Assembly (NCBI GenBank): GCA_002167215.1
Contig: NHDS01000009.1
Location: forward strand, 1 to 15,772
Length of the DNA stretch: 15,772 bases
Direction: 5' to 3'
DNA from: Pelagibacteraceae bacterium TMED65
GTDB lineage: Bacteria; Pseudomonadota; Alphaproteobacteria; TMED127
The notes below the pieces were generated by a model. It did not search any database and had not been told where the DNA came from. It worked only from the letters and a program-made list of their open reading frames with translations. Below are positions 1 through 15,772 of the stretch, piece by piece (position 1 is the first letter of the stretch; every line of letters begins with the position of its first letter). Made by a program: the position numbers and the translations under genes.

Positions 1-10
1 CTGACCCAAG

Positions 11-171: not shown

Positions 172-219
172 ATTTAAACGCCTAACGCACGGTTGGTCGT
201 GATTGCTCGCCGTTTAAAT
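172..219. repeat. Inverted repeat upstream of the ureohydrolase gene
   Basis: ATTTAAACG at 172-180 is the exact reverse complement of CGTTTAAAT at 211-219, with 30 bases between the arms. It ends 21 bases before the start codon at 241, just upstream of the ribosome binding site. It could be an operator for a local regulator or a stem in the 5' leader. No convincing -35/-10 pair could be assigned next to it. Confidence 0.45.
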
Positions 220-240
220 GCCTACAAGGAGAAAAAGTTC

Positions 241-1200
241 ATGACATCCGATCTCACAGCTCCTCCCAAACGGGAATTCCAGAGCTTCCACGATTTTCCA
301 ATTGTTACTGATCTGGACAACCTGGACGCCGACATTGCGATACTAGGGATCCCCTTTGGCGATCCTTATTCGATGGGTGAAGCGAGTAATGATCAGTCGA
401 ATGCCCCAACGCATATTCGGCGGTATTGCGAGCGCGCCCTTCGTGGGCTTGATCGTTATGATTTCGATATTGGCGGTACCCTACTTAACGGGCGCGACAT
501 TAAAGTTGTCGATTGTGGAGACGTCGTTGCCGAAGCCAAGGACGTAGCGGGCAACCATGACCGGTCAGAACAGGCGGTGCGCAAAATCCTCGCCTCCGGT
601 GCATTGCCCATTATCCTCGGTGGAGATCACGCTATTCCCATTCCGGTTTTCCGGGCATTCGAAGGACGCGGGCCGATCACATTGATTCAGATCGACGCCC
701 ATGTCGACTGGCGGGACGTTTTCCATGGCGTGAGCTACGGATTGTCAAGTGTCATCCGAAGGGCATCCGAAATGGAGCACATTGAAGATATTTACCAAAT
801 CGGATTGCGTTCCGCGGGCAGCGGACGCCCGGAGGAAGTTGAAGCCGCGCTGGCGTACGGGTCAAATCTGATCTCCGACATGGAGTTGCAGGAACTTGGA
901 ATGAACGCTATTTTAGATCGCATTCCAGATGGCGGAGATTACTATCTGACAATCGATGCCGACGGCGTCGATCCCGCAATCATGCCGGCGGTCGCGGGTC
1001 CAGCCCCTGGCGGTGTCAATTATTCCCAAATGCGGACCCTAATTCAGGGCTTGGTCAAAAAAGGTAATGTCGTCGGCATGGATATCGTCGAGATTACCCC
1101 CAGTCGCGATGTGAATGGGATCACCGCAATTACCGCCGGAAGGTTTATTTGCAACCTGATCGGTACGGCTGTCAGGGCTGGATATTTCGACGAGAAATAG
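241..1200 (+). CDS. Arginase/agmatinase-family ureohydrolase
   Basis: A 319-residue protein of the Mn-dependent ureohydrolase family, which hydrolyses guanidino or amidine compounds to urea (or an analogue) plus an amine; cytoplasmic. The binuclear metal site looks complete: GGDH (His130), DAHVD (Asp152, His154, Asp156) and DADGVDP (Asp239, Asp241, Asp244), with the conserved acidic residue of VEITP at Glu284. Length fits agmatinase, guanidinobutyrase and proclavaminate amidinohydrolase, and the sequence does not separate these. An in-frame start exists at 193, but ATG 241 is chosen because AAGGAG at 226-231 sits nine bases upstream and family homology starts after it. It lies 71 bases upstream of an MmgE/PrpD gene on the same strand and is probably co-transcribed with it. 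The substrate is unknown; agmatine is only one option. Confidence 0.9.
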   Translation: MTSDLTAPPKREFQSFHDFPIVTDLDNLDADIAILGIPFGDPYSMGEASNDQSNAPTHIRRYCERALRGLDRYDFDIGGTLLNGRDIKVVDCGDVVAEAKDVAGNHDRSEQAVRKILASGALPIILGGDHAIPIPVFRAFEGRGPITLIQIDAHVDWRDVFHGVSYGLSSVIRRASEMEHIEDIYQIGLRSAGSGRPEEVEAALAYGSNLISDMELQELGMNAILDRIPDGGDYYLTIDADGVDPAIMPAVAGPAPGGVNYSQMRTLIQGLVKKGNVVGMDIVEITPSRDVNGITAITAGRFICNLIGTAVRAGYFDEK

Positions 1201-1221
1201 CAGGCAACATTCATTGGACCG

Positions 1222-1245
1222 GCCTCACACTCACTGGTGTGAGGC
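1222..1245 (+). repeat. Perfect intergenic hairpin
   Basis: GCCTCACAC (1222-1230) and GTGTGAGGC (1237-1245) form a 9-bp stem with a 6-base loop between the ureohydrolase stop and the next start. No T-run follows, so it does not look like a classical intrinsic terminator. It may stabilise the upstream mRNA, attenuate read-through or act as an operator. Confidence 0.5.
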
Positions 1246-1271
1246 ATTGGAAACATAGTGAGAGAACCGTT

Positions 1272-2639
1272 TTGAAAACAACTAGGCACGCGATACCTAG
1301 TCTTGCAGATTCCTTGGTGTCTCTGCGGCTTGAGGACATCCCGCACGATGTCCTGAACCAGGCAAAACGTTGCCTGATCGATGTTTGTGGTGTAACATTG
1401 GCAGGATCGAATACAGAATCTGCAAGATTGCTTTTGCAGACAGCGGTTGCGACTTACGGGGAGGGCAATTGCGACATCCTGGGGACGCCGCACAGGCTGA
1501 ATGCGCCTGGAGCTGCGTTTGCAAATGGATCGGCTGCTCACGCTCTTGATTTTGATGATAATTGCTATGCCGGTATTGTGCATGGGTCAGCCGTTGTTTT
1601 CCCGGCTGTCCTGGCCATGGCCCAAAAGCACGGTGCAAGCGGGGCCGATCTTCTGCTTGGATTCATTGCAGGATTAGAGGTCGAATTTGCGGTCGCGAAA
1701 GCGCTGTCTAATTCAATCTATGATAAGGGCTGGTGGACCACCTCTGCCTTAGGGGCCATCGGCAGTGCAGCAGGCGTCGCCAAAGTCTCCTGCCTGGAAC
1801 GCGAGAAAACGACTCATGCGCTTGCTCTCGCCACCGCTGGTGCTGGTGCCATAAGAGCCGTACGCGGTACTGCTGCGAAGCACTACTATTGTGGCAGAGC
1901 TTCCGAAAGCGGTGTCACCGCTGTTATTGCGGCGATACAGGGCGCAACCGGGCCAGCGAACGCATTCGAAGATCAGTCGGGTATTGCGCAGGTACTTAAC
2001 GGGGGGACCTTCGACCCCGGAGAAATCGAGAAGCTGGGAGTGGAATTTAGCATTTCCGCTCCAGGTGTCGATTTGAAGAAGTATCCAGTTTGCTACGCCA
2101 GCCACGCTTCAGCCGATGCAGTCAAAGATATTATGGATGCGGAGGGACTCAGCGCCAATGATGTGATCGCTGTTACCTGTACAGTGCCGCCGGTTGTGAC
2201 CTCCAATCTGACTTATCCAAACCCGCAAACCGCCACTGAAGCGCAATTCAGTTTGCACTTCGCTATTGCAGCAATCATTGAGTACGGCGATATCAAACTT
2301 GAGCATTTGACAACCGAGATGTTGTCGAGTGCACCAATCAAGCGACTCTTGCCGAAAATTGACGTGAAGGTTGGCGATATCCCAGAGTCATACAGGACCT
2401 CATGCTTGATCTGTCCAGAATGGGGCTATGTCGAATTGACGACTCAGGCGGGAGATCGCAAACGCAGTTTCGTTGGCTCGCCTTTAGGCTCGGCTTTGAG
2501 GCCTATGTCTGACGAAGTGCTAAAGACGAAATTTAATGCTTGCGCCGAATACGGCAATGTAAACGGCTTAGCTTCTGCACTCTATGATAAAATTCTGAAC
2601 GTCGAATTGTTGACGAATACCCGGGAATTATTTTCCTAG
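1272..2639 (+). CDS. MmgE/PrpD family protein (copy 1)
   Basis: A 455-residue protein of the MmgE/PrpD family, which includes 2-methylcitrate dehydratase, cis-aconitate decarboxylase and iminodisuccinate epimerase; many members have no known substrate. The hallmark stretch AHALDFDDN followed by a His-containing segment (VHGSAVVFPAVLAMA) is present, as is the helical-domain GTAAKHYYCGRASESG segment. The C-terminal domain starts near KKYPVCYASHASADAV, matching the family K-x-P-x-C-x3-H pattern. The open frame extends back to 1149, inside the ureohydrolase gene, but that part is not family-like. TTG 1272, preceded by GAGAGAA, is taken as the start; it is a weak assignment. It is a distant paralogue of the gene at 9847-11211. 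Co-occurrence with a ureohydrolase suggests a role in processing a carboxylated amine degradation product. Confidence 0.85.
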   Translation: MKTTRHAIPSLADSLVSLRLEDIPHDVLNQAKRCLIDVCGVTLAGSNTESARLLLQTAVATYGEGNCDILGTPHRLNAPGAAFANGSAAHALDFDDNCYAGIVHGSAVVFPAVLAMAQKHGASGADLLLGFIAGLEVEFAVAKALSNSIYDKGWWTTSALGAIGSAAGVAKVSCLEREKTTHALALATAGAGAIRAVRGTAAKHYYCGRASESGVTAVIAAIQGATGPANAFEDQSGIAQVLNGGTFDPGEIEKLGVEFSISAPGVDLKKYPVCYASHASADAVKDIMDAEGLSANDVIAVTCTVPPVVTSNLTYPNPQTATEAQFSLHFAIAAIIEYGDIKLEHLTTEMLSSAPIKRLLPKIDVKVGDIPESYRTSCLICPEWGYVELTTQAGDRKRSFVGSPLGSALRPMSDEVLKTKFNACAEYGNVNGLASALYDKILNVELLTNTRELFS

Positions 2640-2900
2640 TTCCGAGACGCCGGTGCTCCAGGCCAATGGCAGTTCGCTTACACAGATAAGTTGATGAATA
2701 GAGCGCGAGGTGCTCAACAGTGCTTCGTCTTCCCCCGCAACCAAAAATTATTACCCGCGCACTTTCTAGGCACAGTCTCGCAGGGCCGAAAAATTTACGG
2801 TAAAATAATACCCCATTAATGGAAGTGCCCAGATTATAGCAAAAGGCAACCTTCTAATCGGTCTAGAGACACGCTTTGGAGCTGACTGGCAACGTCAACG
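2640..2900. other. Intergenic region without recognisable gene
   Basis: AT-rich in its second half. No reading frame with family resemblance, no clear terminator after the MmgE/PrpD stop and no convincing promoter were found. Confidence 0.5.
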
Positions 2901-3182
2901 ATGCGGTGTCGGGGCGCCGCGTGTCAGCGTCCTGCCAACAGGAAGAATGGCCGTTGCCGGCTGCAAAGCGGGGTCAGTACTAGTGCAAAGACCGAAGAGG
3001 GGCGAGCGCAGATCTTGGCAGCGAATCTTCGGAATGGGAAGTTCAACAAGGACGAGCTTGAAGAGCGTAGGGAGAATGTTGCCAGGGGACAGGAGATACG
3101 TAAGGAGCTTCGCCAGATGGAGCGCGAATTGATTGCTGGTGGCCCGCTCAACAAGCATTGGCGGGACAGTTTCCTGTCATAG
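2901..3182 (+). CDS. Small HGGxSTG-type protein, possibly decaying
   Basis: A 93-residue basic protein. The N-terminal part has spaced cysteines (MRCRGAACQRPA, then NGRCRL) followed by QSGVSTSAKTEEGRA. This resembles the signature of HGGxSTG domain proteins (typically a NGRCRLHGGxSTGPKT pattern followed by a basic/acidic helix ending near a WRD motif). Here HGG reads QSG and the GP of STGP reads SA, so the signature is degraded. The rest (KDELEERRENVARGQEIRK, ending NKHWRDSFLS) fits the same family and is probably helical. The function of the family is unknown. No ribosome binding site precedes ATG 2901, and it sits at the head of a region of gene debris, so it may itself be a pseudogene. Confidence 0.5.
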   Translation: MRCRGAACQRPANRKNGRCRLQSGVSTSAKTEEGRAQILAANLRNGKFNKDELEERRENVARGQEIRKELRQMERELIAGGPLNKHWRDSFLS

Positions 3183-3536
3183 GCGCTTGATTTTAATGTA
3201 GGTAAAGCGGTCTTGTTTAGTCTCCAGAAGGAAGCTGGGGCACTCACGCCTGATTTTGGCTATCACGCGTGAGCGGGTATCTTTGTTAGTGATGCTACCA
3301 TGATGCGAGGTAAAACTCAGGGTGCCGACACAGTGTTAGTCGGTGGTGAGGTAATTCTATAAGGTGGACGCTCTACCCAGATTGATGAAGTGGCTGTCAT
3401 GACTGAGCTCGCGGAAAAACTCGCTGGTCCGCGCACTGAAGACGAAGAGCGCCGACGTAAAATGGCCTAACGAACAATTACTTATTCTGAAAAGTTCCTT
3501 CAGGGCTGGCTCGATGATGAACCGATGAAACCTTAA
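3183..3536 (+). pseudogene. C-terminal remnant of an ATZ/TRZ-type amidohydrolase
   Basis: One continuous frame gives recognisable C-terminal amidohydrolase sequence: VGKAVLFSLQKE near 3198-3233 (compare the family GKxADLVLFDL), then GADTVLVGGEVIL at 3321-3359, GGRSTQIDEVAVMTELAEKL after it, EDEERRRKMA, and finally EKFLQGWLDDEP. The frame is broken by TGA 3270, TAA 3360 and TAA 3468, and ends at TAA 3534. The catalytic barrel is absent altogether. No gene could be made from this. It is not derived from the intact amidohydrolase at 3933-5315, which is on the other strand and has a different C-terminus. The family call rests on short conserved stretches and is moderate. Confidence 0.55.
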
Positions 3537-3569
3537 GAGTATAGGGCTTCCCAAGTTTAAGTTTCCGCT

Positions 3570-3930
3570 GTCGTAAAATAAAAAAAGGAGCAGGCGTTTG
3601 CGCAAGAATTACATGGAGAAAATCTCCAAGTGGACCGTGCTCATTGGGCCAGGAAATTGTGTTGAGTTAACGGGCCATAAACAAATGCGGGCACCACTTT
3701 GTAACGGAGTGGCTTGCAGTTCGAGGTAGTGATGCCGCTAATCCCAAGCGGCTGATTATCGTCTAAATCTGCGATAACCCGCTGAAGAATAGTCTAAATT
3801 TCGTGATCCGGGTCGCCGGCTGATGCTGAGTTACTGGTGGCTTGTTGGAACTCCGTCGAGGTAGCCGAATAATTGGTCAGACTGGCGTTAATTTCCGTCA
3901 ATACACCATCATTCTCTTTCTTTTCCAATT
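3570..3930 (-). pseudogene. C-terminal remnant of an M20-family peptidase/deacetylase
   Basis: Read on the minus strand, one frame gives GDPDHEI, stop (TAG at 3794-3796), TILQRVIADLDDNQP, then a segment ending in VVPAFVYGPLTQHNFLA, with a TGA at 3641-3643. Shifting frame just there restores NEHGPLGDFLHVILA. The order matches the C-terminal half of M20 peptidases (ArgE/DapE type): a PDH stretch, a helix, a metal-ligand region before GVPAxVYGP, then DEHV and FLHV. The N-terminal catalytic domain and dimerisation domain are missing. It lies directly downstream of the amidohydrolase on the same strand, so it was probably the third gene of that operon. Non-functional with reasonable certainty. Confidence 0.6.
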
Positions 3931-3932
3931 GT

Positions 3933-5315
3933 TCAAATTTGCATGCTGGCAGGCAATTTGATGTCGGGTGAAATCTCTCCCAACCGACGCCAGGCTGCGT
4001 GGGTTGCTTCTTGCGCTTCCCCTATAACATCCGCCTCGTTCATGCAGAGTACTTTGCCATCTTTCATCAGAAATCGTCCTTCGACAGCGACCGCTGAGAC
4101 GATACCTGGGTGTCCGTAGTGAACGATATTCGCGATTGGATTAATTACCGGTGTCAAGCTTGGGCTGGTCATATCAAGAACAGTGATATCGGCCAGTTTG
4201 CCTGGGGCAAGCGTACCGAGGTGGTGTGATCTTTTTAGCGCTTTGGCTCCATTTATCGTTGCCGCATGCAGCGCGTGAAGAGGTGCAGGGTCGACGCCAC
4301 CACCGCCCGCGCCCCGATGGACGATGGAGCCGATCCTCATAGCTTCGAACATATCCTCGGTCATGTTGTCCGTACCTAGGGCGATATTGACCCCGGCATC
4401 GATGATATCTCTGGCCAGCGCTTTGTGAGGGCCGCGTCTCGAACTGTTGGCAGGGCAATGCGCCATATGCACACCACGACTGGCTAGCAATTGCACATCG
4501 TTGGGAGTGCAGAATGTCCAGTGCGCCGCAACCACGTCATCCCCCAGCCATCCGTTTGCATCCAGATATTCAGCAGAGGTCATGCCGTGTGCTTCTTTGA
4601 CCTGTTCCAGCTCTTTAGGGCTCTGCGAAAGATGCACGGTGCGTGTCAGACCGTGTTTTTTAGCGAGGTCATTCAACTCAGCAAGCATCCATGGTGAGCA
4701 CACATCAGGTGCGTGTGCAGATATTTGGCATTGCACACGTCCATCATTGGTATCGTGGAAGCGGTTTATCATTTCGACGGTGCGGTCCAGAAATTCCTGC
4801 CCAAAGCCCTTATCAAATTCGTAGATGCCGTCTCGGATCTTAAGTGTCAAAGCATCTGCGGCGTTTTCACCGAAATACAAACGAAGACCGCTATCGATCA
4901 TTCCGTCCGCGTAGCCGGGTATAAAACGAAAAGGCTCTACAAGCGTTGTCGAGCCAGACCGGATTGCTTCTAAACAACCCAATCGGGCGAGAGCGCGTCG
5001 TTCATTATCCGTCATCGCAAAGCTGATGGGCGTCATGTACCCAAAGATGGCATCACCTGACATGTCCTCTACAGTGCCCCGCAACACGAGTAGAACAGTG
5101 TGAGTGTGGGAGTTGATAAACCCGGGCAAAACAGCTTTGCCGCGTCCGTCAATCTTCTCTAAATTTGGAAATCGAGCCTCGACCTGATCGCTCGGACCTA
5201 TTTCAGATATAATCCCTTGCTCTACGGCGATAGCGGCATCTTCGAGGACTACGTCGCTGTCTTCGAGTGAGATTACTGATGTGTCAGTGATTATCCAGTC
5301 TGAGGTTTTAGCCAT
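3933..5315 (-). CDS. Amidohydrolase, ATZ/TRZ (TrzA/SsnA-like) superfamily
   Basis: A 460-residue metal-dependent hydrolase, probably a deaminase or chlorohydrolase-type enzyme acting on an aminated heterocycle or amidine. The N-terminal beta domain is followed by PGFINSHTHT (His70, His72), SAHAPDVCS (His201), HLSQSPKELE (His228), AAHWTF (His265) and ALGTDNM (Asp316), so the mononuclear metal site appears complete. The residue three after His228 is Gln231, where many relatives (for example S-adenosylhomocysteine deaminases) have a catalytic Glu. The family C-terminal segment GKLADITVLDM and an EGRFLMKDGKV strand close the beta domain. The frame extends back to 5447, but ATG 5315 is chosen: an AACGGAGAAC site lies upstream and homology starts there. 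A decayed transporter gene ends 26 bases upstream and an M20 remnant lies just downstream, suggesting a former uptake-and-hydrolysis operon. Confidence 0.88.
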   Translation of the reverse strand: MAKTSDWIITDTSVISLEDSDVVLEDAAIAVEQGIISEIGPSDQVEARFPNLEKIDGRGKAVLPGFINSHTHTVLLVLRGTVEDMSGDAIFGYMTPISFAMTDNERRALARLGCLEAIRSGSTTLVEPFRFIPGYADGMIDSGLRLYFGENAADALTLKIRDGIYEFDKGFGQEFLDRTVEMINRFHDTNDGRVQCQISAHAPDVCSPWMLAELNDLAKKHGLTRTVHLSQSPKELEQVKEAHGMTSAEYLDANGWLGDDVVAAHWTFCTPNDVQLLASRGVHMAHCPANSSRRGPHKALARDIIDAGVNIALGTDNMTEDMFEAMRIGSIVHRGAGGGGVDPAPLHALHAATINGAKALKRSHHLGTLAPGKLADITVLDMTSPSLTPVINPIANIVHYGHPGIVSAVAVEGRFLMKDGKVLCMNEADVIGEAQEATHAAWRRLGEISPDIKLPASMQI

Positions 5316-5341
5316 CGTCAGTTGTTCTCCGTTCCTATGAT

Positions 5342-6532
5342 TTACAGGTTCTCGGGTTCCACAGGCGTTTCCTTTCCACAAAACCCATACAAAGATGAAA
5401 AGGCAGATAGGGCACCAAAGCCAACAACAAACCAGATTACTGAGCATACCGGTTCAGATAGAATCAAACTCAGGGCCTGCGTGGTTGCGGTGGCAATATT
5501 CCACTGTGCAAATCCCATGATGCCAGCTTTGCTCCCAGCTAACTCGAGGCGGGCAACGAATGCCAACAAAAATAATTTCGGTTGGCTCTTTTCCTGTCCC
5601 AAGAAGACAAAAGTAAATGGCAAGACCACCTTAGCGTGGCGGAGTAACCATACAGGTTCCAAATCACAACAAATGCGTTAAGCGCCAATGTAAATCTAAT
5701 GCCAACGCGAATTAAGCGCTTAACATCCTAGGTCGAGGTGAATCCGGACGTCATCAAATTTTCTATTATGTAGCAGTCTAATATGTAACCAATTGCAAGA
5801 AACGGATAGTAGGAACCATATGATGTGGTCGGTTACTCCAACACTTCGGCTGATAATAACGGCAATCAAGTTAACATGGGATACCAGCCTTAAAGTTCGC
5901 AGGCGCCATGTAAGGCATGACCAACTAGAGCCTTAGAGTGCACCAGCGTCGCGCCATCAACCACCGTCTGCAAAGTTCCCCGAGCCAACTGTTCATGGCG
6001 CTTTTCAGGCCAGCACAAATAACAAAACAATAAGGCCACCAGGCTCGAAGGCAGAAATCACCCAGGCACTCACCTGCCAGCCAAACCAAAAATCAAGATA
6101 TCCGCCAATGGCTGATGCTGCGGCCGCAATCAAAGGTTTTATCTTCGTCACGAACCCAATTACATGCGCAGCCCTATAAAGACTGAACAAATCGGAGGCG
6201 ATGGGGTGTGCTAACGTTTACATGGCATAGCTGCCACTTGCTTATAATGCTCGGCCAATGACCAGAGCTTCAATCCCATGATTCTATCTACAGTAGAGTG
6301 GTTCGACGATGTATACCGCGATTCCCATCGGGATAACTCAATGTCGGCCAAACCGATTTGATACTGGGCCATATCCCAGTCTCACAAATGCAAACGTTGC
6401 CATGTAAATGCCTAACGTAAGTTGTGAGGTGCCAGCGCTCGCACCTGGATCCTCTGTTAGCCGAGGAAGCTTAGTCAAGAACATGTGAAAGGCAGATGGA
6501 TTGGTCACGTTGAGACCAATCCGTAGAGACAT
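5342..6532 (-). pseudogene. Decayed Bcr/CflA-like MFS transporter
   Basis: Minus-strand pieces in order reconstruct a 12-helix MFS protein of the Bcr/CflA drug-efflux type. They are an N-terminal part (GTSQLTLGIYMATFAF, YGPVSNRFGRH), IEALVIGRAL at about 6245-6274, ALYRAAHVIGF-like sequence then GGYLDFWFGW, a loop RGTLQTVVDGATLV near 5900-5990, VKRLIRVGI near 5700-5730, and the C-terminal AGIMGFAQWNIATATTQA. The first pieces share one frame, interrupted by stops at 6338-6340 (TGA), a TAG about 65 bases on, 6242-6244 (TAA, where homologues often have Gln) and another TAA before 6200. Frame changes occur near 6005 and 5660. The gene ends at TAA 5342-5344, 26 bases before the amidohydrolase start. 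It spans the whole length of a normal transporter, so it decayed by point changes rather than by deletion. Substrate unknown. Confidence 0.72.
5677..5724. repeat. Inverted repeat inside the MFS pseudogene
   Basis: GTTAAGCGC (5677-5685) pairs with GCGCTTAAC (5716-5724); the right arm also lies in a 12-base palindrome TTAAGCGCTTAA (5712-5723). It falls within former coding sequence, so it is probably incidental. Confidence 0.3.
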
Positions 6533-6630
6533 TAAATATCTGTAAAAAAATGACTTTTTTATTTTCTGGTCGAATATTGAGACGTTACGTACTTCCTTTC
6601 AACGGTAGTGACTGGTATCCTTGGGTGCTA

Positions 6631-6659
6631 TTGAAATCATACATTTTCGCATTTTTACT
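6631..6659 (+). promoter_or_regulatory. Possible sigma-70-type promoter for the RidA pair
   Basis: TTGAAA (6631-6636), a 17-base spacer and TTTACT (6654-6659) lie in an AT-rich gap 27 bases before the start codon at 6687. The -35 is close to consensus; the -10 matches four of six positions. This is only a candidate. The gap 6533-6686 holds no gene. Confidence 0.3.
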
Positions 6660-6686
6660 AGTCCTAAATTATCGAAGGATAAAACT

Positions 6687-7928
6687 ATGACTATTACTCG
6701 GTTTCGCAAATTTAATACCCGCGACGTTTACCCCGGTGGACACATGGACAACGACATGTGCATGGCCGTTCGAGCCGGAAACCGGATTTTCCTGCGAGGT
6801 CAAACGGGGCTCGATCTCAATCAAAACATGATCGATCCAAATGATGCGGGAGCGCAGGCCGAACAGGCCATGCAGAACGCCAAAGTCCTTCTTGAGGAGG
6901 CAGGTTCTAGCCTGGGCCACGTAACGATGGTGACTACCTATTTGACAGATCCGGCTTACAGAACCGCTGTTTATAAGGTTGTTGCTAAGCATTTGCGCGG
7001 CAATCACACGGTTGGAACGGGCCTTGTTGTGAAGGGCTTGGCGATGCCGGATATGAAAGTCGAGATCGATCTGGAAGCCTATATCCCTGAAGCAAATGAA
7101 GTTAAAAAGCATCGTCTTATGCATTCTAAAGACTGGTATGGGCAAACCGAAATTAATCGTGACTCGGCATGGCTGATTGACACTGGGAGCGAGATCTACT
7201 TGCGCGGCCAGACTGGAACGGAATTTGATGGTAAGACCATGCATGGCACCGGCTATACGGCTGAGGACGCAGGAAAGCAGGCCCATAAGGCGATGCAGAA
7301 TGCGCGTGAACTGCTGGAAGAAGCGGGGGCTAGCTTTGACGATGTCTGTAGGACTCGCATTTACATCGCTGACAGGGCCTACCGAGAGCCCGTGTATCAA
7401 GCTATCGGCCAACACTTTGGTGACGTTTACCCATGTTCGACTGGACTTATAATGCGCGGATTTGCGCGTCCCGAAATATTATTCGAGATCGACATGGCCA
7501 TCGTCAGAACAAACGGTACGCCTCATCAACGTTTTCGAAAGTTCCATACGGACAACGAATACAAAGACGGGCAGAAACTGGGGATGAAATTCTGCAAGTC
7601 TGTTCGTGCTGGCAACAGGGTGTTCCTTCGCGGACAGACCGGGACCACGCTTGACGGGGAATTCGTAGCACCGGGCGATCCGGGCGCGCAGGCGGATCAG
7701 GCGATGCACAACATCAAAGTGTTGCTCGAAGAGGCGGGGGCCAGCCTCAAGGACATCGTGAAGGTGAGCACGTATATACAACACCGCGACCATCGCAAAC
7801 CGGTGTATGAAGCCGTCGGCAAGCACCTTAAAGGCGTGTTCCCGTGTGGGACTGGTCTGATCGTGGATGGCTTTGCCAAGCCTCAAATTCTGGTCGAGAT
7901 CGATGTTGACGCTGTGATTTCGGACTAG
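6687..7928 (+). CDS. Triple-domain RidA/YjgF-like protein A
   Basis: A 413-residue protein made of three consecutive RidA/YjgF/Rid-like domains, about 1-133, 140-274 and 281-412. Each carries (F/Y)LRGQTG (37-41, 173-177 and 315-319 for RGQTG), a QAxxAMxNxxxLLEEAG helix, and a closing EID strand (KVEID, LFEID, LVEID). Canonical RidA is a single-domain homotrimer of about 130 residues that hydrolyses reactive enamine/imine intermediates, with active sites between subunits. Three domains on one chain could make a pseudo-trimer. The position that should hold the catalytic Arg (Arg105 in E. coli RidA) appears to be Thr in all three domains (Thr111, Thr252, Thr389), so classical imine deaminase activity is doubtful. 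ATG 6687 is chosen over the in-frame ATG 6621 because GAAGGA precedes it at the right distance and the domain starts there. It is 24 bases upstream of its paralogue. Confidence 0.88.
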   Translation: MTITRFRKFNTRDVYPGGHMDNDMCMAVRAGNRIFLRGQTGLDLNQNMIDPNDAGAQAEQAMQNAKVLLEEAGSSLGHVTMVTTYLTDPAYRTAVYKVVAKHLRGNHTVGTGLVVKGLAMPDMKVEIDLEAYIPEANEVKKHRLMHSKDWYGQTEINRDSAWLIDTGSEIYLRGQTGTEFDGKTMHGTGYTAEDAGKQAHKAMQNARELLEEAGASFDDVCRTRIYIADRAYREPVYQAIGQHFGDVYPCSTGLIMRGFARPEILFEIDMAIVRTNGTPHQRFRKFHTDNEYKDGQKLGMKFCKSVRAGNRVFLRGQTGTTLDGEFVAPGDPGAQADQAMHNIKVLLEEAGASLKDIVKVSTYIQHRDHRKPVYEAVGKHLKGVFPCGTGLIVDGFAKPQILVEIDVDAVISD

Positions 7929-7952
7929 CCCAGTAAATGAAAGTACCTCTGG

Positions 7953-9197
7953 ATGAAACTTGAAAGAATTGGCTCCTTCAACAGTGCTGACGGCCATGTA
8001 GGCCGAACTGAACCCGGCATCGACGCGTCTTCGGTCGTCAAAGCGGGCAATCGCATTTTTATGAGTGGTCAGACTGGCCAGCCGGAAAGCGGTATGTTGC
8101 CAGACAAGACGGATCCGGCGGAGTTTGCAGAGCGTGCGATGGACTCGGTTTCCGCGTTGCTTGACCAGGCCGGGGCGTCGCTCGCCGATGTGTGCAAGGT
8201 CACAACCTGGATCACGGACAAGGCTTATCGACCGGCGGTTTATAATTCGGTCAATCGATTTCTGTCGGTCGAGCCCACAGTCGGAACGGGCATCGTGACC
8301 AAGGGATTGGCATTGCCCGGCATGATGTGCAACCTGGGAATAGAAGCTGTCATTCCACGTCCGGAGGGCCACAAACGTTTTCGTGAATTCGACACGGCGC
8401 AATGGTTTGACCAGAATAAACTGACGCGGCGTTCCTGCATGGTGATCAATACAGGTGATGAAATTTATTTGCGCGGCCAGACGGGGACCGCTCTTGATGG
8501 GTCCAAACAGTATGGTCCGACATTCACGCCTGAGGATGCGGCTGAGCAAGCTGATGTGGCAATCCGCAATGCTGCGACGCTACTCGAAGAAGCGGGGGGC
8601 ACATTTGATGATGTTGCTAAGCTACACGTATACATTCGTGATCGTGCCTACCGACAGGCGATCTATCAGGTGATTGGACACCATCTTGGCGCGCTTGCTC
8701 CGGTATCAACAGGTTTGATTGTCGGTGGTTTTGCCCGTGTCCCGATTCTGTTTGAAATCGATATGGCCGTGACCTTGTCGAAAGGCACTCCGCACACGCG
8801 CATTCGATCTTTTGAAACGACCGCTCAGTATAAAGATGGGCAAGACCTGCGAAGCCGATTTAGTATGGCTATTCGAGCCGGAGACAGGGTTTATTTGCGC
8901 GGTCAGACTGGTTTGACATTTGACGGTGAATTCATGGGCAAGGGTGATGTCTCGGCACAGGTCGAACAAGCCATGTCGAACGTGATTGAATTGCTTGATG
9001 AGGCGGGCGCGCAGCTCGGCGATATTTGTAAGGTCACTGTCTATGTCACCGAGAGGGAGTTTCTGCCAGCTGTTGAAGTGGTCATTGCTCGACATCTTGA
9101 GCAGGTCCGGCCTTGTTATACGGCCATTGTCATCGACGGCCTAGCCATGCCATGGATGCAGGTCGAAATAGACGTTGACGCAGTCATCCAACGTTAG
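7953..9197 (+). CDS. Triple-domain RidA/YjgF-like protein B
   Basis: A 414-residue paralogue of the preceding gene with the same three-domain order, about 1-134, 141-274 and 282-413. Glycine-rich motifs are SGQTG (38-42), RGQTG (174-178) and RGQTG (316-320). Thr112, Thr253 and Thr390 occupy the place of the RidA catalytic Arg. Domain 1 ends with MCNLGIEA instead of the VEID strand seen in the other five domains, so this unit has diverged most. Corresponding domains of the two proteins match best (for example VGTGxVxKGLAxP in both first domains), so the three-domain form arose before the gene was duplicated. The 24-base gap and shared strand imply co-transcription and perhaps a hetero-complex. 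The start has only a weak ribosome binding site. The gene converges on a broken deaminase gene 20 bases downstream. Confidence 0.88.
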   Translation: MKLERIGSFNSADGHVGRTEPGIDASSVVKAGNRIFMSGQTGQPESGMLPDKTDPAEFAERAMDSVSALLDQAGASLADVCKVTTWITDKAYRPAVYNSVNRFLSVEPTVGTGIVTKGLALPGMMCNLGIEAVIPRPEGHKRFREFDTAQWFDQNKLTRRSCMVINTGDEIYLRGQTGTALDGSKQYGPTFTPEDAAEQADVAIRNAATLLEEAGGTFDDVAKLHVYIRDRAYRQAIYQVIGHHLGALAPVSTGLIVGGFARVPILFEIDMAVTLSKGTPHTRIRSFETTAQYKDGQDLRSRFSMAIRAGDRVYLRGQTGLTFDGEFMGKGDVSAQVEQAMSNVIELLDEAGAQLGDICKVTVYVTEREFLPAVEVVIARHLEQVRPCYTAIVIDGLAMPWMQVEIDVDAVIQR

Positions 9198-9217
9198 CGG
9201 CGATGGGTGCTTGGAAA

Positions 9218-9836
9218 TCATGCGCCATAGACCTCATTGCGAGCGATGATACGTCCTTGCTCAAAGACCAAATTGCGTGCGGAATGTCTGGCGACAGCGT
9301 GTACAGCAAGCCCAACTCTCACGATGAAAAAGTCAGGTGTTGCCTGGCTGGCAGTTCCCGCATCTGCGTGAACGAATATGCGCTTGCCTGCAGCAGTGGC
9401 GCAATCGAGGCCAATCAGCCAATAATGATCGTTGTGATATCCTGAACGCCAAGGGGTCAGGGTCATGCGCTCCAGCATTTGACCCCAGCCTGATCGCGAC
9501 CATGTATCGCGAACATCATCATGGCCAGTGAACACTTCGACGCCCCAGTCACGTAGAACTTTGATCGGTGGTAATGATGATGCGTCGCCCCATGGGTCAC
9601 AAGCGATACGTCTGCAGCTGACATCCAGGGTGTTTCTGTCAACGTCTTGTCCAAATGCATGTGCCCGTCCATAACGCCAGGCGACCCTAGTTGTCATCCA
9701 CCATTCACAACATCTTCGCAAAGTGGGGATTTGTTCATTTTCAATTTTGGCGGAGGACGCCGTTAACGTTTTGTATATCGGCCTCAACGCCATCTGGCAG
9801 GCGCACGTCCGTCAGCAGCGTGAACCAGCTTGTCAT
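9218..9836 (-). pseudogene. Broken cytosine-deaminase-like amidohydrolase
   Basis: The minus strand carries pieces of a CodA-like amidohydrolase in three frames. The start ATG 9836 gives LLTDVRLPDGVEADI, ended by a TGA. A second frame gives MDGHMHLDKTLTETPWMS (normally PGFVDxHxHLDKT, the first metal-binding motif). A third gives LPPIKVLRDWGVEVFTGHDD, then VRDTW and the closing segment LVFEQGRIIARNEVYGA, ending at 9218. The order is right but the middle of the barrel, with the remaining metal and substrate ligands, is missing: about 620 bases remain where an intact gene needs about 1,200. It starts 10 bases after the stop of the MmgE/PrpD gene at 9847-11211, so it was the second gene of that operon. 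Cytosine deaminase proper is not implied; the family also includes other heterocycle deaminases. Confidence 0.75.
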
Positions 9837-9846
9837 TCTTTTTCTG

Positions 9847-11211
9847 TTAATTTGTCAGTAATATCGTGAATTCGCGGATATCGGCTATATCCTCGAAGCG
9901 TTCCAGCTTGTTGCGGATCGCGGCCACTCGATCAGCGTCGCCAATGCACGAAACGCAATCATCAAATTTGGACCACATTTCTTCTTCTGAAAGTGGGTTT
10001 TGAAGTACACCTTTAGGATGTTTTAAGAACTTTGAGAGTGTTTGACCATTTTTTAATGTGACCCGAGTCTCTGCGGGCTCTCGACCATTGGTTGCGGTCG
10101 GTAGTGGATTGTCCTCGGATTTCTTTGTCATGGTGATTTTTGGATACAATGCGCGTACCTCTGAATTTTGAATTGCAGAACTTTCAAAATCATCGAGCAC
10201 CAAGCGCTTTCGGAGTAACGCAACCGCAATACAATAATGCATGCTGAAACGTGCTTCCATTTCTGTCTTTGGGTCATCGAACATCAAATTGTCATAGCTG
10301 ACTTTATTGACGACGGTTTCAACGGATTTGATTTCATCAACTCGAAGGTCATGCTCATTCATCAGGTCGACTAAAGCATCGACGGCGGTATGGACACTTG
10401 CGCAACAGGGATGAATTTTCACCTTTAGCCCGTAGCGTTCCAATGCGATGGGCTTACCCATGATTTTGGCACCTTCGGCAAAGCCTTGTTCGCCACTGCC
10501 ACCATATAAATCCTTAAAACTCCATATGCCGTCTAAGGGCTCTGAGGCTGCTGTAATTCCAGCTTCAGCATATCGGGCCGCGAGCAAACCGTTCATCGCA
10601 GCGATCCCTGAATGAAGTGGCTTTGCCATCGTACCAAACTGGATTTTAGACCCTGATGCCATACTGAACGCCAGGCTAATGGCACGAGTGGTTGTTTCCG
10701 TATCGAACTTACACAGTCTTGCCGCGGCCGCAGCAACACCCATGCCGCCGATTGTACTGGTGGTGTGCCAACCCAATTCGTAGTGGGCCAAGTTGACACC
10801 ATTACCAATAACAGCCATCGCTTCAAGCCCTGCTATATAAGAATCAAGCAGCGCTGTTCCGTCTGTAGAATGCTCGTCTGCCAAGGCAAAAATCGCCGGA
10901 GCAAGCACAGCTGTCGCATGTCCAGCCGTCGGGTGGTAGTTATCGTCAAAGTCGAGGGCGTGTGCCGCTGTGCCGTTAACCAGAGCCGCATGCGGCGCTG
11001 CCAAGGATACTTCGCTGCCGACTAACCGCGCAGAACCAGAACTCAAATCTACGATCGCCTTCCTTGCACGACTGGTGGCCTCATCGTTCGCGCCAGCAAT
11101 CATGCACCCAACAATATCGATCATGGCATTTCGGGCGAGTCTAAGAGCTTCACCGGTTATATTCGTTTCGGATTCAGCAACCCATCTAGCAATTTCATCG
11201 GTTATCGACAT
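9847..11211 (-). CDS. MmgE/PrpD family protein (copy 2)
   Basis: A 454-residue member of the same family as the gene at 1272-2639, only distantly similar to it. Family features: AHALDFDDNYHPTAGHATAV with PAIFALAD after it, GTMAKPLHSGIAAMNG in the helical domain, and KIHPCCASVHTAVDAL at the start of the C-terminal domain. ATG 11211 is preceded by AGAAGGAT nine bases upstream, a good ribosome binding site. The frame is intact to its stop at 9847, and a broken amidohydrolase follows 10 bases later. It is transcribed divergently from the DUF1028 gene across a 103-base gap. Related enzymes are methylcitrate dehydratase and iminodisuccinate epimerase; the substrate here cannot be inferred from sequence alone. 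Confidence 0.87.
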   Translation of the reverse strand: MSITDEIARWVAESETNITGEALRLARNAMIDIVGCMIAGANDEATSRARKAIVDLSSGSARLVGSEVSLAAPHAALVNGTAAHALDFDDNYHPTAGHATAVLAPAIFALADEHSTDGTALLDSYIAGLEAMAVIGNGVNLAHYELGWHTTSTIGGMGVAAAAARLCKFDTETTTRAISLAFSMASGSKIQFGTMAKPLHSGIAAMNGLLAARYAEAGITAASEPLDGIWSFKDLYGGSGEQGFAEGAKIMGKPIALERYGLKVKIHPCCASVHTAVDALVDLMNEHDLRVDEIKSVETVVNKVSYDNLMFDDPKTEMEARFSMHYCIAVALLRKRLVLDDFESSAIQNSEVRALYPKITMTKKSEDNPLPTATNGREPAETRVTLKNGQTLSKFLKHPKGVLQNPLSEEEMWSKFDDCVSCIGDADRVAAIRNKLERFEDIADIREFTILLTN

Positions 11212-11314
11212 TTAAAAGCGATCCTTCTATGGACTAGGCTTTCGGCACAAATTATTGTTTCCGTGATTTTTAGCCAAATATCCCTTTTTTGCTGATTTTT
11301 GGAGATGCCAAAAA
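11212..11314. promoter_or_regulatory. Divergent intergenic control region
   Basis: The only non-coding DNA between the start of the MmgE/PrpD gene (minus) and that of the DUF1028 gene (plus), so it should carry both promoters and any shared operator. It is AT-rich, with ribosome binding sites at either end (AGAAGGAT on the minus strand, GGAGAT on the plus strand). No hexamer pair was convincing enough to name. Confidence 0.45.
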
Positions 11315-11965
11315 ATGACATTTTCGCTTGTAGGAAAATGCGCTCGCACAGGAATGTTTGGTGCGGCTGTCACAACATCAAGCATCGGCGTTGGTTCCCG
11401 TTGCCCATATGCGCGAGCCGGCGTGGGCGCGGTGCTCACACAGCACCGCACTGATCCAACACTGGGACCAAAGGGCTTGGATTTTCTGTCTGAAGGAAAA
11501 TCAGCAGAAGAAACGGTAGCTGCTCTCGTTGATGGCAATGAAACGATTGGTTGGCGGCAGTTGGCTGTCATCGATTCAAGTGGTTCGTCAGCATTTTTCC
11601 ATGGTGAGCATATTTCGTCGATCCATTCCGGTTTCAAGGGTGAAAACAGTTGTGCCATCGGTAACATCATCCGCACGGACGATATACCGCAAAAAATGGT
11701 TGATGCGTTTGAAGCAACACCGTACGAGGACTTGGCAGAGCGGTTACTGCTTGGCCTTGAGGCTGGGGAAAATGCAGGCGGTGAGTTTAAACAAATCAAG
11801 TCAGCTGCTTTATTGGTCGTGCATGAAGAGTCGTTTCCCTTGGTAGATCTGCGCGTTGAGTTTGATCGCGACCCGCTTGCTGAATTGCGTTTTCTCTGGG
11901 AGGTTTATCGTCCTCAGTCAGAACCTTATGTGCAACGCGCGGTCGATCCATACAGCATTCCCTAA
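11315..11965 (+). CDS. DUF1028 family protein
   Basis: A 216-residue protein matching the DUF1028 family. It begins MTFSLVGKCARTGMFGAAV, continues with VGSRCPYARAGVGAVLTQH, a LGPKGLDFLSEGKSAEE segment and WRQLAVIDSSG, then a GENSCAIGNI segment. These are the order and spacing expected of the family, and the length is normal for the short form. The biochemical function is not established; genes of this family often sit among peptide transporters and C-N hydrolases. ATG 11315 is supported by GGAGAT about ten bases upstream and by homology starting at residue 1. It is divergent from an MmgE/PrpD gene and ends eight bases from the convergent dioxygenase gene. Confidence 0.85.
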   Translation: MTFSLVGKCARTGMFGAAVTTSSIGVGSRCPYARAGVGAVLTQHRTDPTLGPKGLDFLSEGKSAEETVAALVDGNETIGWRQLAVIDSSGSSAFFHGEHISSIHSGFKGENSCAIGNIIRTDDIPQKMVDAFEATPYEDLAERLLLGLEAGENAGGEFKQIKSAALLVVHEESFPLVDLRVEFDRDPLAELRFLWEVYRPQSEPYVQRAVDPYSIP

Positions 11966-11973
11966 CCTGAAAC

Positions 11974-13008
11974 CTAAACGTTTCGATTGGCATAATACGT
12001 GGTTTTGCCATCTTGGCGGGGTATCCCGTTGTCACCCTTGTGAACACCCACGGCGTCAACGGCAATCCGACCGTCCCAGTCATTAAGCCATAGTCGTATC
12101 AAATGACGCTTTTTTGCTGGATCTTCGGAGTCCCGAAATGCCGAGCGACGGTGAAGTAGCCGTGAATTGTTGAACAAAGTAGCCTCGCCTCGCTCCAAGA
12201 TAAAGTCGAGCCTGAAGTCTGGACGGTTTCCGATTTCTTCGAACAAATCCATTGCTTGTCTGTCTTGATCTGAAAATGGCATATCAAATTCTTCGACTGC
12301 CATATCGATGTATCCACGCATCAGAACGACACTCGGCACCCCATCTTTTTCAGAAATGATTGGAATCGGAACTTTTGAATAGGGGGGATCGCCAGGTAAT
12401 TCCTCGCCGAATCGATGCAGATGAAACCCTTTCCAAAGTGGCTCTAGCAGATTAACGTGGTTCAGAAGCATTTCATTGTAGACCGCGAGTGCGCTGCAAT
12501 AGCTAGATAAGCCCCCACTTTCGGCCGGTTGTAAGGCGAGCATTCCGACTGTATCACAACGGTCCGTATGAAAATGTAGGTCTCGGGAATTTCTGTAGGC
12601 CCGTTCTCGCGCGTCCTGACCACCCACATTAACTACGTGACCTAACAAATCTCCCATTGCGCTTTGCGATACAGGGCGGCCAAAGTGCGTGCCAAGGCCC
12701 AACCACATCATTTCAATTTCATCGATTGGAAAAGTGTCGACAGGAAAACCCCTCAGAATCAGAAGACCTTTTCCATCACTAATTTCACGTTGCCACTCGG
12801 CCAAGTCGTCAGAAATACTTTCTAGCGCAAAGTCATCACGCCCAATTTTATGGAGGTCCGTCTGTCCTTTAGTCTTTAATTTTTGTGCACCCCGCGCTAA
12901 CGCGTCGACATGTTTCCCGCCCAATTCGACGACGAATTCCTCTTTATCTTGAAAAGTTGAAGCTTTCCACGCTGCAGGATGATCATAAGGTTCAAGGCGT
13001 GGTTTCAT
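11974..13008 (-). CDS. TauD/TfdA-type Fe(II)/2-oxoglutarate dioxygenase
   Basis: A 344-residue protein with the TauD/TfdA fold, oxidising an organic substrate at the expense of 2-oxoglutarate and oxygen. The iron triad is visible: HTD (His147, Asp149) in LHFHTDRCD and His286 in NNSRLLHRR. Arg305 in HLIRLWL probably binds 2-oxoglutarate. GLLILRGFPVD near 81-91 is typical of the N-terminal part of the fold. The frame opens at a TTG at 13032, but ATG 13008 is chosen because GGAGGA lies seven bases upstream. It begins 39 bases after the stop of the ABC ATPase gene on the same strand, so it is probably co-transcribed and acts on what the transporter imports. It resembles the gamma-butyrobetaine hydroxylase/TauD-like relatives found with peptide and amino-acid transporters more than taurine dioxygenase itself; the substrate is unknown. 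Confidence 0.87.
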   Translation of the reverse strand: MKPRLEPYDHPAAWKASTFQDKEEFVVELGGKHVDALARGAQKLKTKGQTDLHKIGRDDFALESISDDLAEWQREISDGKGLLILRGFPVDTFPIDEIEMMWLGLGTHFGRPVSQSAMGDLLGHVVNVGGQDARERAYRNSRDLHFHTDRCDTVGMLALQPAESGGLSSYCSALAVYNEMLLNHVNLLEPLWKGFHLHRFGEELPGDPPYSKVPIPIISEKDGVPSVVLMRGYIDMAVEEFDMPFSDQDRQAMDLFEEIGNRPDFRLDFILERGEATLFNNSRLLHRRSAFRDSEDPAKKRHLIRLWLNDWDGRIAVDAVGVHKGDNGIPRQDGKTTYYANRNV

Positions 13009-13047
13009 TCCTGATTCCTCCAATTGCAACAATATGGAAATTTGTGA

Positions 13048-15180
13048 TTAGACGACGGGGTCTTCTGAATCCTGGTAGCGGATTACGGGTCTCATTGCTT
13101 CAAGTTGTTTTCTTGGGATGTGGCAATAGATTTTATGTTGATCGCCATAATTCTGAAGTGGGGGATTTTTGGTTTCGCAAATGTCTCCAACCTTACGGGG
13201 GCATCGTGAGGCAAACCTGCAACCTGACTTCGGGTTAATCGGGCTGGGGACAGATCCCTCAAGGCGAATACTTTCTTGGTCAATATTTGGATCGGGCAGC
13301 GAAATAGCCGAGAGCAATGCCTCTGTGTATGGGTGGTATGGCGGAACGAAAACCTCTTCTGGCGATCCGATCTCACACAATCGACCCATATACATAACGG
13401 CGACCCTATCCGACAGGTAACGAACAACGGAAAGATCGTGGGAGATAAATAGGTATGCTGCGTTAGATGATCTCTGCAGTTCAACCAGGAGATTAAGGAT
13501 TGCTGCCTGAACCGAAACATCGAGAGCTGACAACGGCTCGTCACAGACAATCAGGTCCGGATCTGCCGCAAACGCGCGAGCAATCGCGACCCGTTGTTTT
13601 TCGCCGCCGGAAAGCTCGTGCGGATACCTTGAAGCGTAATGGGCTGGCAAGTTGACGCTTTGGAGCAGGTGAGCAACGCGGGCGTCTCGTGCTTTTTCGT
13701 CTGCCAACCCAAAAAGTTCCAACGGGCGACCAATGGTTTCTCCGATAGATTTCTGTGGATTGAGTGTTGCGTCTGGGTTTTGAAAGACAATTTGAACCCG
13801 GCGCCTGACATCACCACTGCGGTTCCGCGCTTTGCCTTCCAGTAATTTATTCTCAAATGCCATAGATCCATTGGTCGCGGTTTGTAACCCGACGACGGTT
13901 CGACCGAGAGTGGTCTTACCACAGCCAGACTCTCCAACAATCGCAAGCGTTTGTCCCCGCTCTAAATTTAAATCAATGCCATCAATGGCATGAACATTTC
14001 GAACACTCTTGCCTGTGATCATTTCAGCCAAATTGCGACGAAGGGGGTATAAACATTGCAAAGCATCCACGTTGAGAATGGGAACACCATCGTGCGTTTC
14101 TTCTCTTGATTTGGTTTTGCGAGCATTTCGGTCGAATTCAAAAGTCGGAATGTTGTTCCAACGTACACAGCGAACAAAGTCCTCGTCGCCATCTATCATT
14201 TCTTTTTGAATGTCTTCTTTAACACATTGATCCTTGCTTTCGCTGCAACGTGGTGCAAAGACACAGCCTGAGGGCAATTCACTGAGGTTGGGCAACCGTC
14301 CTTCGATTGCGTTCAATGGACGATCATGCTTTGAGAGATCAAGGCGCGGAATGCAAGTCAGCAGACTACGCGTATATGGGTGCGCGGGCGCAGTAAAGAC
14401 TCGGGAAACTGGCCCTTGTTCAACGATTTGTCCAGCATACATAACCGCGACACGGTGACAAAACTTGGCTACGACGCCTAGGTTGTGGGTGATATAAAGA
14501 ATAGCAGATCCGTGTATTTCTTTTAGCTTGGCAACAAGATCAAGGATGTGTGCTTCGGTTGTGACATCAAGGCCTGTCGTGGGTTCGTCCATGATTAAAA
14601 GTTCTGGATTACATGCGAACGCCATTGCGATCACCACGCGTTGCTGTTGTCCGCCAGATAATTCATGGGGATATCTCTCATAGAAGCTGGCTGGATCAGG
14701 AAGCTTGACCTCCTCTAGGAGTCCGAGCACTCGTTCTCGTACTTCTGCTGCTTGCATATTCGTATGTTCATTCACGACCTCTGCAATTTGGTCACCGATC
14801 CGGTACGCTGGGTTTAGCGCCGTTTGTGGATCTTGATAGACCATCGCAATTCGTGACCCTTGAATTCGCTTCAGTTCACCAGAATTTAGGGAAAGAACAT
14901 CAGTATCATGAAAATTGATGGAGCCCTTCATGATCCGACCGGCTGCATCAAGACCTCGCATCGACGCGAACGCTACAGAACTTTTCCCCGAGCCACTCTC
15001 ACCGACCAACGCGAGGGTCTCCCCGGCATGAACGGTGAGATCCACACCGCGAACGGCTTTGACTTCTTTGCCGCGCGGAAAATACGAAATGTGCATATCT
15101 CGTATCGTTAGAACCGGCTTCCCGGTTTGAACGTCCTGCTCAAGCGTGCCGACATCGCCTTCTGAGACTGGACTACTCAT
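13048..15180 (-). CDS. Peptide/opine ABC transporter, fused double ATPase
   Basis: A 710-residue protein carrying two complete nucleotide-binding domains of the OppD/DppD and OppF/DppF types. The first has Walker A GESGSGKS (60-67), Gln116, LSGGQ (174-178), LLIMDE (194-199) and His232; the second has GESGCGKT (416-423), Gln467, LSGGE (523-527), LIVCDE (543-548) and His581. Each ends in an oligopeptide-type C-terminal extension with spaced cysteines (306, 312, 319, 338 and 654, 660, 668, 686). Similar cysteine sets in OppD proteins can hold an iron-sulfur cluster. ATG 15180 is chosen over an in-frame start at 15225 because GAGGAAAA precedes it; it overlaps the permease stop by eight bases, indicating translational coupling. 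It energises import of a peptide-like or nitrogenous solute with the adjacent permease. The substrate-binding protein and second permease are not in the window. Confidence 0.93.
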   Translation of the reverse strand: MSSPVSEGDVGTLEQDVQTGKPVLTIRDMHISYFPRGKEVKAVRGVDLTVHAGETLALVGESGSGKSSVAFASMRGLDAAGRIMKGSINFHDTDVLSLNSGELKRIQGSRIAMVYQDPQTALNPAYRIGDQIAEVVNEHTNMQAAEVRERVLGLLEEVKLPDPASFYERYPHELSGGQQQRVVIAMAFACNPELLIMDEPTTGLDVTTEAHILDLVAKLKEIHGSAILYITHNLGVVAKFCHRVAVMYAGQIVEQGPVSRVFTAPAHPYTRSLLTCIPRLDLSKHDRPLNAIEGRLPNLSELPSGCVFAPRCSESKDQCVKEDIQKEMIDGDEDFVRCVRWNNIPTFEFDRNARKTKSREETHDGVPILNVDALQCLYPLRRNLAEMITGKSVRNVHAIDGIDLNLERGQTLAIVGESGCGKTTLGRTVVGLQTATNGSMAFENKLLEGKARNRSGDVRRRVQIVFQNPDATLNPQKSIGETIGRPLELFGLADEKARDARVAHLLQSVNLPAHYASRYPHELSGGEKQRVAIARAFAADPDLIVCDEPLSALDVSVQAAILNLLVELQRSSNAAYLFISHDLSVVRYLSDRVAVMYMGRLCEIGSPEEVFVPPYHPYTEALLSAISLPDPNIDQESIRLEGSVPSPINPKSGCRFASRCPRKVGDICETKNPPLQNYGDQHKIYCHIPRKQLEAMRPVIRYQDSEDPVV

Positions 15181-15772
15181 CGTTGGTTTTCCTCGCTGCA
15201 AGATATTCGCGCATGCCATCACCAAGCAAATTCACGGAGATAATAAGAAGTACAATCGCACCCGCCGGCGCAAAGACCACCCAAGGGGCTGAAACTAAGA
15301 ATGCGCGTTCTTTAGCAATCATTAGTCCCCAGTCTGGAGCAGGTGGCTGCGCACCAAGCCCGAGGTAGCTCAGCGACACGACGAGAAGCACCGCATAGCT
15401 AAGTCGGATACACGTTTCGACGATCACAGGTGGCCAGACGTTCGGAAGAATTTCGCGGAATATTATGTAGCTATTCGACTCGCCGCGAACTTCAGCGGCC
15501 TCAACAAATTGAACGTTGCGCAGTCCTAAGGTAGCACTCCGAACTACGCGTGCGACCTTAGGAATGAAAACGATCCCGATGCTTAAGACCGCATTAATTT
15601 CGTTTGAACCAAGCGCAGCAACCACGAGCATGGCCAGAAGAAGGGCAGGGAAGGACATTACGATATCGGTGAGCCGCATCAGGATTTCATCGAACCATCC
15701 ACCAATGAAACCACTGAACAGCCCAATTATAAGGCCGATAGTGACGCCAATGATTGTCCCTGTGCCGGCCAT
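15173..15772 (-). CDS. ABC transporter permease, OppC/DppC type (partial)
   Basis: A partial inner-membrane permease of which 199 residues are in the window. Hydrophobic segments are seen near GVTIGLIIGLFSGFIGGW, MSFPALLLAMLVVAALG, AVLSIGIVFIPKV, SYAVLLVVSLSYLGLG and PAGAIVLLIISVNLLG. The cytoplasmic EAA loop (VEAAEVRGESNSYIIFREI), which docks on the ATPase, is intact. The family is normally 280-300 residues with one more N-terminal helix and a periplasmic domain, so about 90 residues lie beyond 15772 and the ATG at 15770-15772 is probably internal. The stop overlaps the ATPase start by eight bases. Confidence 0.88.
   Translation of the reverse strand: MAGTGTIIGVTIGLIIGLFSGFIGGWFDEILMRLTDIVMSFPALLLAMLVVAALGSNEINAVLSIGIVFIPKVARVVRSATLGLRNVQFVEAAEVRGESNSYIIFREILPNVWPPVIVETCIRLSYAVLLVVSLSYLGLGAQPPAPDWGLMIAKERAFLVSAPWVVFAPAGAIVLLIISVNLLGDGMREYLAARKTNDE

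Follow-up and report, generated by a model that had tools for sequence, protein, structure and literature searches.

Two adjacent genes of Pelagibacteraceae bacterium TMED65 each encode three fused Rid domains, and both proteins belong to a non-canonical branch of the Rid family in which the catalytic arginine of RidA is missing. The genes lie in a stretch of 15,772 nucleotides (contig NHDS01000009.1, positions 1 to 15,772; hereafter the window), gene A (413 residues) at 6687..7928 and gene B (414 residues) at 7953..9197, both on the forward strand and separated by a gap of 24 bases. Such a tandem pair of three-domain genes is far beyond chance. The reading favoured here, to which we would give slightly less than an even chance, is that A and B are each a single-chain pseudo-trimer of this branch, and that such proteins hydrolyse C=N bonds (imine or enamine) in the catabolism of nitrogen compounds.

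Architecture of the two proteins

PF01042 was the sole family returned by a Pfam scan of A and B. It was matched three times in A (E = 6.1e-48) and three times in B (E = 1.7e-43), with each stretch significant alone in both chains, as an initial annotation of this DNA had proposed on reading three Rid domains per chain. The RGQTG motifs which that annotation described as repeated are indeed present in five of the six domains, but the first domain of B carries SGQTG instead. In A, the signature residues are Arg37, Tyr96 and Glu126 in domain 1 (6687..7100, forward strand, as are all the domains), Arg173, Tyr237 and Glu267 in domain 2 (7101..7514), which also has a short insertion ahead of its first long helix, and Arg315, Tyr374 and Glu404 in domain 3 (7515..7928). 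The three domains of B span 7953..8366, 8367..8783 and 8784..9197. Both genes are delineated by an open reading frame, PF01042 matches and a predicted model, to which are added the homologues for A and the tree for B. For A, the start at 6687 was favoured over a TTG at 6621, most of the homologues shown starting at the same residue and a few being longer. In L001, the nearest relative, the two frames are likewise open, and the ratio of nonsynonymous to synonymous substitution rates (dN/dS) against it is about 0.03 for A and 0.04 for B, values that are rough because dS (1.9 and 1.5, respectively) is near saturation.

Structure prediction gave a compact single unit (predicted template modelling score, pTM, 0.93) with whole-chain matches to concatenated Rid-type folds. 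The predicted models of both A and B form one unit of this kind, in agreement with the single-chain pseudo-trimer packing that had been anticipated. No three-domain Rid chain was found among the solved structures related in sequence to A (30 distinct sequences) or to B (42), all of which are chains of 123-156 residues.

The initial annotation had also supposed that this architecture was undescribed, which does not hold. Proteins named 3x-RidA, with EF_0115 as the example, were proposed by Niehaus et al. (2015; PMC4433059) to be presumably covalently linked trimers, and a full-text search of open-licence papers found the term in that paper only. A and B resemble 3x-RidA in the fusion of three Rid domains in one chain; however, that paper places 3x-RidA within RidA, a subfamily assigned with CDD models, whereas A and B are without the RidA arginine. 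The fused architecture having been known since 2015, it is the branch signature, the gene partners and the duplicate B that form the less ordinary part. No account of this branch, its signature or its gene partners, nor of Rid joined with DUF1028, was found in searches of open-licence papers, which were assessed for the most part by their listings.

Active-site signature

Homologues of A numbered 1053 at E <= 1e-3 among 8000 scored candidates, and those of B 693 among 7998; the best 120 of each were taken, 180 distinct proteins in total. Seven pocket residues are conserved in TdcF, namely Tyr17, Gly31, Asn56, Asn88, Arg105, Pro114 and Glu120 (PMC1884159), and it is the domain fold together with the pocket residues Gly31 and Glu120 that A and B have in common with TdcF/RidA homotrimers. 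An alignment on TdcF was made with A, B, 12 of the 180 listed homologues, 19 single-domain rows and 22 outgroup rows, one further Rid protein (in L042) being dropped here and from the trees. A larger set comprised 173 A-type rows (A of the window and 172 of the 180 listed homologues) and nine B-type rows.

Compared with TdcF, the A-type domains have Gly, Ala or Ser for Arg105, Arg for Ser30 (which we take to be a residue lining the RidA pocket), Tyr for Asn88 and Ala for Pro114, while Gly31, Asn56 and Glu120 are kept. Within the window, the catalytic arginine of RidA is missing from all six domains, an arginine replaces the serine before GQ in five, and the pocket glutamate is kept in five. 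Arg at position 30 was found in all 19 single-domain rows and all 30 A-type domain rows of the alignment and in none of the 22 outgroup rows; in the larger set, domain 1 has it in 163 of the 173 A-type rows and domains 2 and 3 in all 173. Glu120 is present in 168 of these rows in domain 1 and in all 173 in each of the other two domains. The signature Gly, Gln, Thr and Glu are nearly invariant across A-type rows. Of the two residues by which a RidA would be recognized, the pocket glutamate is present in A-type rows, and the catalytic arginine at position 105 is not. In domain 1 this position is Gly (109 rows), Ala (63) or Ser (1); in domain 2 it is Ser in all 173; in domain 3 it is Gly (149), Ser (12), Gln (7), Trp (2) or Tyr (1), with two rows other. 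Ser is also the residue at this position in 15 of the 19 single-domain rows.

Rid4 and Rid7 have been described as carrying Trp at the arginine position and Rid5 and Rid6 as variable there, and Rid4 to Rid7, all without the catalytic arginine, had no known activity in 2015 (PMC4433059). Judged by this residue, Gly, Ala or Ser would fit Rid5/Rid6 better than Rid4/Rid7.

The B-type rows depart from this pattern in two domains, and do so uniformly. In all nine, domain 1 has Ser30 and Asn120 in place of the signature Arg and Glu, domain 2 retains the full A-type signature, and domain 3 has Glu88 for the signature Tyr together with Tyr at the Arg105 position. The suggestion that each interface of a fused trimer can specialise thus receives partial support: B has lost signature residues in two of three domains, and in the 173 A-type rows the position equivalent to TdcF Tyr17 varies between domains and is mostly constant inside any one of them (domain 1, Met in 137; domain 2, Ser in 166; domain 3, Phe in 172).

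Relatives of the three-domain proteins

A tree of 86 domain rows included A, B and 11 of the 180 homologues, P0126 (three rows) and three rows of L015 being dropped as near-copies. The domains of the branch's three-domain proteins and the 19 single-domain rows formed one clade (support 100/99) apart from the other Rid rows. Domains 1, 2 and 3 each formed a group of their own, with the exception of the divergent L054, whose domains 1 and 3 stand apart. In a reduced tree, from which L054, a second three-domain family and 17 of the 22 outgroup rows were left out, the root was unstable because of long branches; a single clade of all three domains was neither rejected (approximately unbiased test, p-AU 0.19) nor shown. 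From its spread in the family, the single-domain form is inferred to be ancestral.

The second three-domain family (L014:4912-6126 and L015:4896-6242) has three Rid domains in about 400 residues, with 27-28% identity to A. Out of 7998 candidates it had 2176 matches at E <= 1e-3, some of them perhaps shared with A, and it falls outside the clade of A, its own placement being weakly supported (82/36); perhaps it represents an independent fusion.

Of 289 genomes in the class to which G001 belongs, 17 have matches to A at E <= 1e-40, at 19 places: three with three-domain genes (two in G001 and one in G138) and 16 with single-domain genes. This cut-off undercounts, as L102, a locus with a Rid gene near DUF1028, was missed by the search.

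Gene neighbourhoods

Neighbourhoods were surveyed by tblastn at 14 three-domain loci (the window, L001-L012 and L054). Seven of them (the window, L001, L003-L006 and L012) have a type I cluster, which contains an amidohydrolase, the three-domain Rid gene, a second amidohydrolase, an MmgE/PrpD family protein, a DUF1028 protein, a TauD-family dioxygenase and an oligopeptide-type ABC transporter. The second amidohydrolase was not found in L005 and TauD was not found in L004, and the clusters of L001, L003 and L012 are partial, being cut by contig ends.

In the window, the first of these conserved neighbours is an amidohydrolase at 3933..5312 (reverse strand), for which the nearest NCBIfam models are TRZ/ATZ-like, with scores below the cut-off for all those shown. 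Downstream of B lies a remnant of the second amidohydrolase (PRK05985 or cytosine-deaminase-like; 9218..9793, reverse), which is full length in relatives, at about 400 residues in L001; the window matches its two end parts only, with approximately 565 bases missing between them and with changes of frame. It is followed by the MmgE/PrpD family gene (9847..11211, reverse), the DUF1028 gene (11315..11965, forward), the TauD-family dioxygenase gene (11974..13011, reverse) and a conserved gene for two fused ATPase units of an oligopeptide-type ABC transporter (13048..15177, reverse), named by reading its translation, a name which fits the permease and solute-binding families in the L005 cluster.

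Five loci (L007-L011) have a type II cluster with a molybdenum-cofactor enzyme, the three-domain Rid gene and a luciferase-like enzyme, to which L007-L010 add an FAA hydrolase, DUF1028 and, at a distance, TauD; in L011 the cluster is cut short. The remaining two, L002 and L054, fit neither type. DUF1028 is present at ten of the 14 loci, L001, L003 and L011 being cut by contig ends, and in L002 it was not found over 10 kb on either side.

Of the 16 single-domain loci, 14 have an upstream HpaB-family gene in the same orientation (a partial 40% match in L044), 11 have DUF1028 nearby, within about 130 bases in ten of these, and nine have both partners. In L041 (1346-8273) the cluster resembles type I but carries two unfused single-domain Rid genes in place of the fused one. 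It was also observed that the HpaB-Rid pair occurs twice in L038 (4733-9221) and L045 (6325-10798), flanking DUF1028 on both sides.

Single-domain relatives were found in 248 plasmid records, 105 of them from Klebsiella. Rid-DUF1028 occurs with a deacetylase gene in the E. coli and Pantoea plasmid regions, and after an FAD-type (flavin adenine dinucleotide) oxidoreductase gene in those of Leisingera and Rhizobium. The Azospirillum plasmid (L109) has Rid followed by an arginase-family gene, with ABC genes and an amidohydrolase, DUF1028 being absent from the stretch shown. Rhizobium leguminosarum GLR17 (L108) is an example of a cultured carrier of a single-domain gene. L105 (6995-12675) and L106 (8995-14535), from E. 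coli and Pantoea plasmids, share a common run of Rid-DUF1028-argE-ABC-oxidoreductase-GST (glutathione S-transferase)-dehydroquinate dehydratase.

Possible roles

In the favoured reading, an imported nitrogen compound would be converted by an oxidative or ring-opening enzyme to an imine or enamine, whose C=N bond the inter-domain pockets would hydrolyse, DUF1028 and the amidohydrolases then stripping further nitrogen. In the window, the TauD-family dioxygenase would carry out the oxidative step; in relatives, a luciferase-like, molybdenum-cofactor or HpaB-type enzyme would do so. The new arginine may replace the lost one in substrate binding. RutC, itself a Rid protein, acts at a similar point in the degradation of the pyrimidine ring. 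Hydrolysis of a C=N bond is the best guess because of this parallel and because many of the settings combine an oxidative enzyme, which could act on a nitrogen-containing compound, with enzymes cleaving C-N bonds. The small Rid protein OngD, which a marine bacterium requires for growth on an oxidised amino sugar and whose reaction is unknown (PMC9537276), shows that catabolic clusters can include an essential Rid protein. Unspecified RidA-family genes are highly expressed in paracetamol degraders, with no HpaB or DUF1028 (PMC9420511), and in PMC4921024 Rid appears in the reference list only. Pyrrole-2-carboxylate was considered as a candidate substrate, but the literature on it yielded no more than a reference entry for its flavin enzyme.

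Several observations weigh against C=N hydrolysis by a distinct branch. The loss of the catalytic arginine speaks against imine or enamine hydrolysis, as Arg105 is needed in RidA (PMC4433059) and has been used to predict activity across the family (PMC5619798). The branch is also perhaps less separate from RidA than the signature implies, since about 10% of RidA proteins have Ser instead of this arginine (PMC4433059), as domain 2 does. Arg105 itself is found in 13 of the 22 outgroup rows and absent from nine, in L038, L041 and L045 the second Rid gene deviates from the signature at positions 88 and 107, and the mapping onto TdcF relies on sequence alignment at low identity and is least certain at positions 17 and 88. 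As to the gene partners, type II was defined by the luciferase-like gene, so that this link is not independent evidence; DUF1028 is not a partner of Rid alone, since among over 100 DUF1028 matches, 30 loci were scanned and two of these have a Rid gene within about 1.5 kb; and the different settings of the plasmid-borne single-domain relatives, in five regions, indicate no single pathway.

The same missing arginine, together with the alteration of B in two of its three domains, would suit a non-catalytic binding or assembly protein, A and B then joining in a mixed complex to shield an intermediate or hand it on, as would the adjacency of the two genes and the apparent purifying selection on both. 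We consider this unlikely, though with an appreciable probability: the signature Gly, Gln, Thr and Glu are conserved in A-type rows beyond the needs of a scaffold, and 11 of the 14 loci have a single copy. A fuller account of the branch would have the catalytic arginine relocated to the opposite side of the pocket, in place of the serine before GQ, the trimer fused so that each pocket could evolve alone, the protein acting with DUF1028 to break down nitrogen compounds, and B serving as a natural experiment, two of its domains rebuilt and one kept. Taken as a whole, it appears rather improbable.

An ordinary housekeeping deaminase of the RidA type, acting on 2-aminoacrylate and similar imines and simply fused, is quite improbable. 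Its case rests on membership of the Rid family, on the RidA proteins with Ser for Arg mentioned above (PMC4433059) and on a TIGR00004 total above the cut-off, but that total is summed over three domains, and two single-domain relatives score well below. The absence of the catalytic-place arginine from every domain of A and B argues against it, as do the catabolic-looking clusters and the occurrence of the branch in 17 of the 289 genomes at E <= 1e-40. Membership of RutC was rejected, TIGR03610 giving 87.6 bits for A and 55.3 bits for B against an equivalog cut-off of 169.1.

For gene B, the nesting of its domains inside the matching A domain groups of the tree indicates that it arose by duplication of the whole three-domain gene. 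The A and B pair was found at three of the 14 loci (the window, L001 and L012), with B open in all three; a second copy was not seen at the other 11, two of which (L011 and L054) might conceal one, as a contig end interrupts the gene itself. Decay of B towards loss would be consistent with its lost signature residues, with the longer stem branches of domains 1 and 3 (0.70 and 0.48) compared with domain 2 (0.32), and with the broken amidohydrolase next to it in the window. This is nevertheless very improbable, given the three open frames, the fixation of the changed residues in all nine B-type rows and the rough dN/dS of about 0.04 against L001, which suggests a gene in use and under apparent purifying selection. 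B likely handles a different ligand or assists A.

A ring-opening amidase like cyanuric acid hydrolase and barbiturase, whose Toblerone fold has its active site in a central barrel with three potential Ser-Lys pairs (PMC3758960), is the most improbable alternative, the fold match being far weaker than that to chorismatases, PF01042 standing alone in the Pfam scan and the three Ser-Lys pairs not being conserved (no invariant Lys in 50 rows, K222 and K359 nearly so). The chorismatases FkbO and Hyg5, whose whole-chain fold was matched by prediction, have 15-17% identity; membership by sequence was rejected, TIGR04444 (cut-off 325 bits) scoring B at 20.4 bits and not listing A.

The branch offers unfused, fused and fused-plus-duplicated versions, the unfused one at L041 lying in a window-like cluster, so that it can be tested directly what fusion, and changes in one pocket at a time, do to a symmetric trimer. 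The recurring link of the branch with DUF1028 and with flavin-dependent enzymes provides a first handle on the function of DUF1028 and of Rid proteins without the arginine.

Other features of the window

An ABC transporter permease gene, named by reading its translation, is cut by the window end (15173..15772, reverse strand). On the other side of the conserved cluster, an arginase-family gene and a second MmgE/PrpD gene occupy 193-2639 on the forward strand, outside the part conserved in relatives, and L001 likewise has a distant MmgE/PrpD on that side. The approximately 1.3 kb that follow (about 2640-3930) contain no convincing gene as judged by reading frames alone, the longest being of about 110 codons.
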